From: a virus
DNA: 47,953 bases
Strand: one strand, 5' to 3'
IMG/VR virus record: IMGVR_UViG_3300045931_000138
Span: 1 to 47,953 of that record
Shown here: positions 24,587 to 27,564 of the stretch, piece after piece
Layout of the letters: each line of letters begins with the position of its first letter
How positions within the stretch are numbered: position 1 is the first letter of the stretch
Notes under the pieces: model-generated
Database searches by the model: none
Told to the model about the DNA's origin: nothing
The model's input: the letters and a program-made list of their open reading frames with translations, nothing else
Made by a program: the position numbers and the translations under genes

Positions 24587-25231
24587 ATGGTTGCTGGTGT
24601 GAGCAAGAGTCTTGATGTGCAGACGGTTCTGATTGATTCTTTGCGTCCTCATCCACAGAATCCGCGTTTGGGGAATGTGGATGGGTTGGTTGAGAGTCTG
24701 AGGGTGCATGGGCAGTATAAGCCGATCGTGATTAGTAGTGATGGGGTGGTGATTGCTGGGAATCACACTTATTACGCTGCGATGGAGTTGGGGTTCAAGC
24801 AGATGTCTGCGGTGAGGCTTGATTTCCCGCATGACGATCCAAGGGCCGTGAAGATCATGTTGGTTGATAACCGCAGTAGTGATATGAGCAGGTACGACAA
24901 TAGTGAGTTGGTGAGCCTGCTCACTTACCTTGAGGACGACCTGATCGGCACCGGCTACGACGGGGAGACCCTTGATGACCTGATGGCTTTGCTTGATGAG
25001 CAGTCCACGACTCCTTTGGTGATCAATGATCCGCATGTGACTACGTTGCCGAATCTGCAAGAGAAGATGGAGAAGTATCAGGCGATGGGGCGCAGGATGA
25101 TTGTTCTGGATTATTCCCAAGAAGAATATGGGAGGGTGACCCAGCAGTTTGAGCGTCTGCGGGAGCGGTACAAGGTTGTGAGCAACGCGGAGGCGGTGCA
25201 GTTGTTCCTGAATGAGACGGTGAGTGTGTGA
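24587..25231 (+). CDS. ParB/Srx-like nuclease-fold protein, 214 aa
   Basis: ParB-N domain: VLIDSLRPHPQNPRLGNVDG (14-33), SLRVHGQYKPIVIS (37-50), then VVIAGNHTYYAAMELGF (54-70) in place of the ParB GHRRxxA box, and the VDNRSSD turn (93-99). Proteins of this subtype are widespread in phages and several have been linked by genome context to base-modification genes; some ParB-fold proteins bind or cut DNA or use ATP/CTP. Start 24587 fits a leader with TTGTCG at 24549, but the promoter is uncertain. Its stop overlaps the dioxygenase start (GTGTGA). It uses many T-ending codons, unlike the structural genes. Confidence 0.8.
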   Translation: MVAGVSKSLDVQTVLIDSLRPHPQNPRLGNVDGLVESLRVHGQYKPIVISSDGVVIAGNHTYYAAMELGFKQMSAVRLDFPHDDPRAVKIMLVDNRSSDMSRYDNSELVSLLTYLEDDLIGTGYDGETLDDLMALLDEQSTTPLVINDPHVTTLPNLQEKMEKYQAMGRRMIVLDYSQEEYGRVTQQFERLRERYKVVSNAEAVQLFLNETVSV

Positions 25232-26037
25232 CGGCTGAGTTGCACCTGCCCCGCCTGTTGTCCCCGAAGCAGGCGGATCTGCTGAACGCCAAGAAGGCTG
25301 TTGAGATGCCGTACACGATCAATGAGCCGACGCATGTGTTCGATGAGCGCAACGGTGATCTGATACTGGCTTTCCAACCGGCTCCTGACGTGCACACTTT
25401 GCGGAAGCACATATTGAGCACGACCATGACCACCACGTACCGCAGCAGCAGCGGCATGAGCAACGTGAGCAGGACTTTCGGTATGGCGCCCAGGAAACCT
25501 ACGCAGTGGAGGGATGGGTGTGCTCCCACGAGCATGAGCAGGGAGCATCCTGAGGCCAGCGCGTACCTGGCGTACTATGCGGAGTTGCTGGCGAATGAGA
25601 TGAACGCCTTCGTGCCCAAACAGGTGCAGGCTGATGAGCAGACGATTCAGCAGGTGTTGCCGGAGTGGCGGCTGACTGAGCAGGCTTTGTGGACGAGCGG
25701 GGTTATCAACAAGTCGTCGCAACTGGCGTATCACCGGGACAAGTTCAATTTTGATGCCTGGTCCGCGATGGTGTGTCTGCGGAGGGGCACTCGTGGGGGG
25801 TATCTGCATCTGCCGGAGTACGGCATGGTGCTGAGTTGCAGAGATGGTTACGCAGCGTACTGGTCTGGTTACAGACTGTTACATGGGGTTACGCCTATCC
25901 AGACCATACAGCCGGACGGGTACAGGTTCACCGTCGTCTACTACGCGCTCAAAGGCATGAAGGACTGCCACACGCACGCCGTGGAGCAGGAGTTCGCCCG
26001 CGAGAAGCGCACCGGGCGGGAACATGCCGGTCAGTAA
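25228..26037 (+). CDS. TET/JBP-like 2-oxoglutarate, Fe(II) DNA-base dioxygenase
   Basis: TET/JBP enzymes hydroxylate the methyl group of 5-methylcytosine or thymine in DNA using Fe(II), O2 and 2-oxoglutarate. The 269-residue product shows the double-stranded beta-helix ligands: His169-x-Asp171 (AYHRDKF), His219 (LLHGVTP) and Arg233 (GYRFTVVYYA), with GGYLHLPEYGMVLSCRDG between and a family-like SSSGMSNVSRTFGMAPRKP (72-91) N-terminal block. Phage TETs, shown to oxidise 5-methylcytosine in DNA, have this size. Followed by two glycosyltransferase genes, it would create the hydroxymethyl base they decorate. The substrate base cannot be told from sequence. Confidence 0.8.
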   Translation: MTAELHLPRLLSPKQADLLNAKKAVEMPYTINEPTHVFDERNGDLILAFQPAPDVHTLRKHILSTTMTTTYRSSSGMSNVSRTFGMAPRKPTQWRDGCAPTSMSREHPEASAYLAYYAELLANEMNAFVPKQVQADEQTIQQVLPEWRLTEQALWTSGVINKSSQLAYHRDKFNFDAWSAMVCLRRGTRGGYLHLPEYGMVLSCRDGYAAYWSGYRLLHGVTPIQTIQPDGYRFTVVYYALKGMKDCHTHAVEQEFAREKRTGREHAGQ

Positions 26038-26776
26038 ACGCCGCCTCCCCGAACCCGGCCCGCTGGTCCTGTCCCCCACCGCCCCACTGCTCATCCCGAA
26101 AGTCATCCACAGGATCTGGTTCGGGCCGATGCTGAACTACCACCTCCTGTTCGGGGAAGCCATGCGGAAGATGTACCCGGACTGGGAGATAGCCGAGTGG
26201 CGGGAGGAGCACGTCCAGGGCCACCAGTACGCGGACATCGTCAGCCAGATGATCGCCGACCGCCGCTACCGCGCCGCCAGCGACGTGTTCCGTATCATCC
26301 TGCTCCGCGACTACGGCGGCTTCTATGTGGATAGCGACGCCGAACCCCTGGCATCCGGTGTCGATGCCCTAAGGGGCAGGGAAGTACTTCTGGTCAGGGA
26401 AACCAGGAACAACATCCTCAACGGCTTCCAGGCGGCGGTCCCGCAGCATCCGCTGCTGCAATACATGCTCTCCACCCTGGAGCAGCGCCTCGCCTCACAC
26501 AAAGGGGCCGCAGACTTCCAGACAGGCCCGTGGTGGACAACAGCAGTGTTCTTCGACTTCCTCGACAGCGGCATCACCTGGCCCCTCAGCCCCGTGAGAC
26601 CGTTCCTGCCGTACTCGATGATGCAGTTGATAGGACGCGGGGGTAACCAGGAGATGGTGAAAGGCAGCCGCGAGTACCCTCCTGGCACCCTTTTCGCCCA
26701 CCACTGGGCCAGCGAACGCACCAAACCAGCGAAACGGAAGGTCAACTGGGCCTTGGACCTGCGAGAAGTGCGGTGA
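26024..26776 (+). CDS. DXD-type glycosyltransferase (Gly_transf_sug-like), 250 aa
   Basis: IPKVIHRIWFG (24-34) and the block AASDVFRIILLRDYGGFYVDSD (85-105) are diagnostic of the DXD sugar-binding superfamily (capsule/mannosyltransferase type); Asp103-Ser-Asp105 would bind the metal and nucleotide sugar. A later LSPVRPFLPYSMMQ and AHHWASER close the fold. It overlaps the dioxygenase gene by 14 bases, so co-expression is tight. In this context the acceptor is most likely the hydroxymethylated base in phage DNA or the first sugar on it. Confidence 0.82.
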   Translation: MPVSKRRLPEPGPLVLSPTAPLLIPKVIHRIWFGPMLNYHLLFGEAMRKMYPDWEIAEWREEHVQGHQYADIVSQMIADRRYRAASDVFRIILLRDYGGFYVDSDAEPLASGVDALRGREVLLVRETRNNILNGFQAAVPQHPLLQYMLSTLEQRLASHKGAADFQTGPWWTTAVFFDFLDSGITWPLSPVRPFLPYSMMQLIGRGGNQEMVKGSREYPPGTLFAHHWASERTKPAKRKVNWALDLREVR

Positions 26777-27564
26777 ACATCGTCTACGCCATCCCCAGCA
26801 GGGGGCGGGCCGCTGTCGTGGGCGACAAAACCATCGCATCCCTCATCGCGGCGGGGGTCGATAGGGCCGATATCCACCTGTGGGTGGATGAGGATGAGGC
26901 TGACGCCTACCGGATGCACGAGAACAGTGTCGGGGAGTTCCATGTAGGCCCGAAACGCACCAGTTTGCGCGACAAACGCAACAATCTGACCCTCCACTAC
27001 CCGAAAGGGCAGCGGTTGGTGTCCTGCGACGACGATGTGAGCGCATATTGGTACGCCAGAACCCGGAAACGGCCCCTCACACCCCTGAAAGACCTCCCAC
27101 GGCTCGCTGAATGGGCGTTCGACACCGCAGACAGCCTCGGGATCGGGCTCTGGGGGCTGTACCCGATAGATAACCCCTTCTTCATGCGCCCGTACGCCAC
27201 AACCGACCTCAGATTCATCCCCGGCCCCACTTTGGGCTACACAACGACCGGGGATGACACCGAACGGACCACCGTGGACGAGAAGGACGACATCGAGCGC
27301 TCAATCCGGTTCACCATCCGCGATGGGGGGGTTCTGCGCATCAACTGGGCCTCATTCAGCACCTCCTACTACACGGAGGGGGGCGGGATGCAGTTGTACC
27401 GCACAGATGAGTCCATAACCGATGGTGCACTGCGCCTCGCCGCCATGTACCCCCAGTTCATCCGCCTCAGGCAGCGGTCCAACCATCGGGGGACCGCTGA
27501 GGTCGATCTGGCGCGCGGATACGCCGTTTGCCCACCTATCCCCGCGCCCAAGGAGTGGATGTAG
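26773..27564 (+). CDS. TET-associated-type GT-A glycosyltransferase (TAGT-like), 263 aa
   Basis: Starts IVYAIPSRGRAAVVGDKTI with the Ser-Arg-Gly-Arg nucleotide-binding loop, has HLWVDEDEADAY and then LVSCDDDVSAYWYAR, Asp86-Asp-Asp88 being the GT-A metal motif. The whole layout agrees with the TET-associated glycosyltransferase family described from phage genome context by Iyer and co-workers. GTG 26773 overlaps the previous stop (GTGA). Probable role: transfer of a sugar onto the oxidised base, with the 26024 enzyme adding another sugar or the reverse. Confidence 0.8.
   Translation: MNIVYAIPSRGRAAVVGDKTIASLIAAGVDRADIHLWVDEDEADAYRMHENSVGEFHVGPKRTSLRDKRNNLTLHYPKGQRLVSCDDDVSAYWYARTRKRPLTPLKDLPRLAEWAFDTADSLGIGLWGLYPIDNPFFMRPYATTDLRFIPGPTLGYTTTGDDTERTTVDEKDDIERSIRFTIRDGGVLRINWASFSTSYYTEGGGMQLYRTDESITDGALRLAAMYPQFIRLRQRSNHRGTAEVDLARGYAVCPPIPAPKEWM

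Follow-up and report, generated by a model that had tools for sequence, protein, structure and literature searches.

A ParB–TET cassette with two glycosyltransferases in a probable actinophage is predicted to hydroxylate and glycosylate a DNA base

We analysed the IMG/VR virus record IMGVR_UViG_3300045931_000138 over its whole length of 47,953 bp (hereafter the window), a linear and possibly fragmentary sequence, with the focus on a cassette of four genes that lies just before the genes in TerS and TerL position (Table 1). The four genes are all on the plus strand, and they overlap as tightly as the original prediction, made from the sequence of the window, had claimed. The overlaps between consecutive genes are 4, 14, and 4 bp, suggesting that their translation is coupled. 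The products of these genes are a ParB-like protein, a TET/JBP-type dioxygenase, a GT32-type glycosyltransferase, and a protein similar to TET-associated glycosyltransferases (TAGT). The ParB-like character of the first product, also claimed earlier, agrees with its PHROG match. Its gene occupies the same position in related phages, and in the window it is adjacent to the TET gene and upstream of terminase, as in the ParB–TET cassettes of actinophages. ParBc proteins adjoin another cytosine hypermodification enzyme too, in a role that is not established (PMC12783734).

The assignment of the second product to the TET/JBP class was retained on the grounds of its conserved residues and predicted fold. 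The HxD...H iron triad (H169, D171, H219) and the 2-oxoglutarate-binding Arg (R233) are both present, and these four residues and N174 are invariant in alignments of 10 and of 31 sequences. The Pfam Tet_JBP model (PF12851) matched the protein at E 2.9e-6 and 27.0 bits, below the curated cut-off of 34.9, as was likewise the case for the TET proteins of phages Tonitrus and Donny, and PHROG_6059 matched it over its whole length (E 1.6e-74). In a search of the PDB with a structural model built from 31 sequences (pLDDT 88.1, pTM 0.84), CcTet, CMD1, NgTet1, and TET2 ranked first. In VIA-align comparisons, TET proteins reached Z scores of 15.8–19.8 (TET2 19.8 over 247 residues at 3.9 Å; NgTet1 18.9), and the first AlkB-like chain 14.8, so that the predicted double-stranded beta-helix appears closest to that of TETs, and this ranking gives no ground for placing the product outside the TET/JBP clade. 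No J-binding domain was found; the TET domain fills the protein. By its class, the enzyme is predicted to oxidise a 5-methylpyrimidine in DNA. The labels that accompany PHROG matches in this group (PHROG_6059, PHROG_800, PHROG_498) are misleading: the label 'queuine tRNA-ribosyltransferase' is given to TETs (PHROG_6059), and P-loop kinases go under 'terminase small subunit' or 'adenylate kinase'.

The next two genes encode glycosyltransferases from different families, as had been anticipated from their DSD and DDD motifs. The first of them passed the cut-off of 23 for PF04488 (Gly_transf_sug) with 32.9 bits, and D103 and D105 of its DxD motif are invariant in homologues. Its structural model is weak (pLDDT 63), and the best matches of this model were YeGT (E 4e-9), PaToxG, Och1, and glycogenin, which are UDP-sugar GT-A enzymes and which we take to be of the retaining type. 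The second one is TAGT-like. Its match to Pfam TAGT (PF20691) was sub-threshold (16.1 bits against a threshold of 27.5), and one of its PHROG matches is to the T-even second-sugar family (beta-glucosyl-HMC-alpha-glucosyltransferase, PHROG_842). Within its GT-A DDD motif, D87 and D88 are invariant among homologues, and D86 is conserved in most of them. The pairing of GT32 with TAGT is new beside a TET. More than one glycosyltransferase per cassette is not new, since L040, L042, L058, L065, L073, and L088, six of the related viral loci, carry three or four glycosyltransferase-like genes; what sets the window apart is its GT32.

Table 1. Genes of the cassette and of its downstream border in the window
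Feature	Coordinates	Strand	Details
ParB-like protein, first cassette gene	24587..25231	+	214 aa; PHROG_723 E 5.5e-36; Pfam ParB_N E 4e-4, below cut-off
TET/JBP 2-oxoglutarate/Fe(II) dioxygenase	25228..26037	+	269 aa; H169, D171, H219, R233; base-contacting positions N174, Y239, L241
GT32-type glycosyltransferase	26024..26776	+	250 aa; PF04488; DxD = D103-S104-D105
TAGT-like glycosyltransferase	26773..27564	+	263 aa; D86-D87-D88; PHROG_25200 E 3.6e-33, PHROG_842 E 1.8e-10, Pfam TAGT E 0.011
Small protein, TerS position	27590..28042	+	homologous to TerS-position gene of L013; downstream cassette border
Terminase large subunit, landmark	28372..29724	+	PF03237 E 5.6e-26, PF17289 E 1.9e-14; longest ORF start 28306

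Related TETs were found by tblastn in 89 phage records, nearly all of them from actinophages, and an alignment search of viral contigs added 80 further TET loci. The order ParB–TET–terminase is homologous in 90 loci, which indicates that the cassette is more than a chance arrangement. Actinophages with the order ParB–TET–[cargo]–terminase were already known: in most annotated relatives ParB and TET lie upstream of terminase with differing genes between. The gene order of the window recurs in the cassettes of Bclasvirinae and of other actinophages (Donny, Indlovu, Nigel, KayaCho, Altadena), whose TETs are 38–46% identical to its TET in the alignment; terminase adjoins in most actinophage cassettes, but not in those of Altadena and Klevey. 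As for the annotated cargo, Donny and Indlovu carry TAGT, a PIG-L deacetylase, and a kinase, Nigel and KayaCho a kinase-like gene, and CaiB and Tonitrus a protein of the amino acid:DNA transferase (ADDT) type. The window shares the TAGT-like glycosyltransferase with Donny, Indlovu, and Altadena, but it has neither kinase nor PIG-L deacetylase, and its GT32 gene stands between TET and TAGT.

Among the 77 of these 90 loci with a terminase-type gene in view, TAGT was present in 39, Ploopntkinase3 in 25, ADDT in 18, and the kinase together with ADDT in 14. TAGT and ADDT never occurred together (0/77; Fisher p 2e-7, with no kinship correction), which suggests that the sugar and amino-acid routes are alternatives acting on one intermediate. 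Pfam matches of the cargo proteins included ADDT (PF18724), P-loop kinase 3 (PF18751), a weak match to a pyridoxal phosphate enzyme, and an FAD oxidoreductase. The nearest relative of the window is L013, whose TET is sister to its own (support 100/99); the order there is ParB–TET–kinase–TerS–TerL, so that a kinase stands where the window has its two glycosyltransferases. The Rhodococcus phage Tonitrus also has ParB and a Tet-like protein (46% identity) upstream of terminase, in what its authors call, as a prediction, a thymidine hypermodification system (PMC11955845); it uses aGPT-PPlase2/ADDT and a kinase, whereas the GT32 and TAGT-like genes occupy this slot in the window, from which the kinase/amino-acid-transferase cargo is absent. 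The ADDT proteins of ParB–TET loci are homologous to proteins of Ackermannviridae such as SW16-7, CBA120, and Det7. For SW16-7, proteins that resemble aGPT-PPlase2 and kinases of phage ViI have been described (PMC10458263). In the DNA of ViI, a member of that family, there is a base derived from thymidine by way of 5-hydroxymethyldeoxyuridine (PMC6449724). The conserved ParB–TET pair is followed by a swappable slot, filled with sugar enzymes or with the kinase/amino-acid-transferase set, which apparently serve one hydroxymethyl intermediate.

We propose that the four genes are translated together as a single unit, whose products would modify the DNA of the phage itself once it has been replicated and before it is packaged. 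The TET/JBP enzyme would hydroxylate the 5-methyl group of a pyrimidine in DNA, thymine (to give 5-hydroxymethyluracil) being a likelier substrate than 5-methylcytosine. The TAGT-like enzyme would then add a sugar to the hydroxymethyl group, as may be expected from the many loci where a TAGT is the sole glycosyltransferase after TET. The GT32-type enzyme might use UDP-sugars of the host to add a second sugar or to make an alternative mark; a disaccharide on the base is possible, and the order in which the sugars are added is a guess. A probable role of the ParB-like protein is to guide this machinery on DNA or to clamp it there. The end product would be a bulky base similar to base J and probably resistant to restriction. 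Homology and gene context lend good support to oxidation followed by glycosylation; to the reading that the cassette hydroxylates a DNA base, more likely thymine, and then adds one or two sugars to it we assign a probability of about 0.6. The hypermodification by oxidation and glycosylation that had been claimed at the outset stood in this respect, carried by the TET/JBP enzyme, the two glycosyltransferase families, and the conserved order in 90 loci; 5-methylcytosine, named then as the known substrate of phage TET/JBP enzymes, is probably not the base. The more specific version, in which an actinophage makes di-glycosylated 5-hydroxymethyluracil by means of TET, TAGT, and GT32, as a counterpart of base J in a bacterial virus, is tentative and on the whole doubtful.

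Several observations weigh against the proposed reading, and they are taken up here with the alternatives that they favour. The best surviving alternative, which we consider improbable, is that the same cassette acts on 5-methylcytosine, methylated by the host or by an unsequenced phage C5-methyltransferase, and that it makes glycosylated 5-hydroxymethylcytosine. No C5-methyltransferase (PF00145) was found in the window, a linear record that may lack this gene as a fragment, and none was found in ten complete isolates (nine have a window-type TET, and the TET of the tenth, S-CBWM1, belongs to the other phage clade). This absence is a weak discriminator, because in the other phage TET clade, too, a C5-methyltransferase occurs in just 4 of 50 records. 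Moreover, such an enzyme is encoded about 5 kb from TET in 5 of 49 related contigs. These five (L014, L027, L049, L075, L086; records G002, G010, G019, G038, G046) include some with kinase or ADDT cargo. Two further candidates for a TET beside a C5-methyltransferase were rejected: in cyanophage MED4-184 the 'DNA methylase' is a mislabelled ParB protein (ParB_N) with an FkbM methyltransferase after it, and the one in P12024L belongs to the N6/N4 type. No thymidylate-synthase-like hydroxymethylase was found in the window.

The residues expected to contact the base bear on the same question. The N4 of 5-methylcytosine is bonded by Asn1387 of TET2, Asp234 of NgTet1, and Asp350 of CMD1 (PMC7854593). 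At the corresponding position (HxD+3; N174 in the window), all 91 window-type TETs have Asn, and 83 of 84 TETs from the other phage clade have Asp. That N174 matches Asn1387 of TET2, which acts on 5-methylcytosine, speaks for the alternative (PMC7854593); taken by itself, Asn at this position is neutral between cytosine and thymine. The N3/O2 of 5-methylcytosine is read at R+8 by His1904 of TET2 and His297 of NgTet1, with Arg393 of CcTet in the same place. In the TET of the window this position is Leu241, which a profile alignment sets on His297. Window-type TETs have Leu, Lys, or Ile there, and those of the other phage clade have Arg, with identical outcome in two pattern passes, the second of them stricter. 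The loss of His/Arg at R+8 thus tells against 5-methylcytosine, in a manner that is suggestive only. The lack of a C5-methyltransferase, Leu241 at the position of the N3 reader, and the thymine-chemistry cargo in the same TET clade together make 5-methylcytosine doubtful. Provided that the cassette modifies DNA, the base is probably thymine, to judge from these features, and a glycosylated 5-hydroxymethyluracil resembling base J is the more plausible product.

A second alternative, less likely than a cytosine substrate, is that TET and TAGT alone make the modified base, and that GT32 is a passenger which glycosylates another target, such as a virion protein, the cell wall, or the capsule. A single-protein search of viral contigs with GT32 found no relatives, and these were obtained only with a family alignment. 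Relatives of GT32 elsewhere lie in clusters of capsule or surface type, some of them in plasmid-borne capsule loci and others in phage glycosyltransferase/methyltransferase clusters away from TET, and the nearest viral relative, L262, sits among structural genes, all of which fits a passenger. The GT32-type genes of phage Leaf (L012), the phage-like plasmid phiM2 (L178), and Phrappuccino (L422) are in glycosyltransferase/methyltransferase clusters, and neither TET nor ParB is annotated alongside. In the window, however, GT32 is placed between TET and TAGT and overlaps them by 14 and 4 bp, and GT32s of another lineage accompany TAGT, mostly together with ParB, before terminase in 13–14 contigs. 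In this second setting, the order is mostly ParB–GT32–true TAGT–TerS–TerL, in 13 loci and in L351, and no TET was found in those of their records that were searched. The TAGTs of three such cassettes matched PF20691 at E 8e-38 to 2e-42, and that of L308 at 2e-12. Members with ParB, GT32, TAGT, and terminase include L272, L299, L309, L314, L305, L308, and L351; a UDP-glucose dehydrogenase and an epimerase are sometimes present in the cassette, as in L314, where they suggest a phage-made sugar donor. This recurring pairing is the best evidence that GT32 would work with TAGT on DNA rather than on a surface glycan.

The GT32 of the window does not appear to be of the same lineage as those of the TET-less cassettes: in a FastTree tree with midpoint root and long branches, 14 cassette GT32s fell within a 15-tip group that excludes it. 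As this group leaves out the GT32 of the window, the tree gives moderate support to the view that GT32 was recruited to such cassettes more than once.

The least probable alternative is that TAGT and GT32 act with ParB on some other handle, independent of the TET product, and that TET makes a separate mark; it draws on ParB–TAGT–(SDR)–TerS–TerL in about 80 viral contigs (L342–L421, 5-kb flanks), none with TET nearby, which leaves the TAGT acceptor unsettled, and on a search of whole TET-less records (TET in 0/19, and in 7/7 TET records with the same search), as well as on the near absence of other handle-making enzymes from the records searched (thymidylate-synthase-like in 0/13 records, C5-methyltransferase in 1/27); against it, TAGT homologues follow TET in 39/77 TET loci, and glucosylated hydroxymethylcytosine is the substrate described for the TAGT of T6 (PMC13216743). 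Solitary TAGTs were reported in 288 of 753 phage genomes (PMC13216743).

The proposed hydroxylation and subsequent glycosylation of a base, probably thymine, resembles the synthesis of base J in kinetoplastids by JBP1/2 and a glucosyltransferase, but the cassette is viral and its glycosyltransferases are different. In a cytosine hypermodification of phages, reportedly described by Burke et al. in 2021, TET is likewise combined with TAGT; in the window, no C5-methyltransferase was seen. Phage T6 makes a disaccharide on hydroxymethylcytosine with two glycosyltransferases, one of them of the TAGT type, as in the window; however, its first-sugar enzyme is a GT-B alpha-glucosyltransferase, and hydroxymethylation takes place at the level of free nucleotides and is not the work of a TET (PMC13216743, PMC13390438). 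If the intermediate is 5-hydroxymethyluracil, many cultured actinophages would carry base-J-like or other thymine-derived DNA. The GT32-type family would be a candidate for DNA glycosyltransferases, of use in enzymology and in studies of restriction evasion, and, should the di-glycosylated product be real, a further glycosyltransferase family recruited to DNA, more than once.

No near-identical DNA was found in the phage collection, and no RNA families or tRNAs were found in the window. The phage is a tailed one, judging by its portal, major head, tape-measure, and minor tail proteins. A WhiB-type gene (4757–5179, minus strand) with a helix-turn-helix region after it suggests that the host is an actinobacterium. 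The two arms of the window are transcribed divergently, with a turn of the cumulative GC skew near 24–25 kb, and the cassette opens the right arm. Divergent from it, a gene at 23928–24401 (minus strand) encodes a protein with an Ala/Lys-rich low-complexity C-terminus. The left arm also encodes an HNH endonuclease (15864–16256), an ERF-type annealing protein (6866–7501), and a protein with a weak YspA/SLOG-like match (19902–20324), all on the minus strand.

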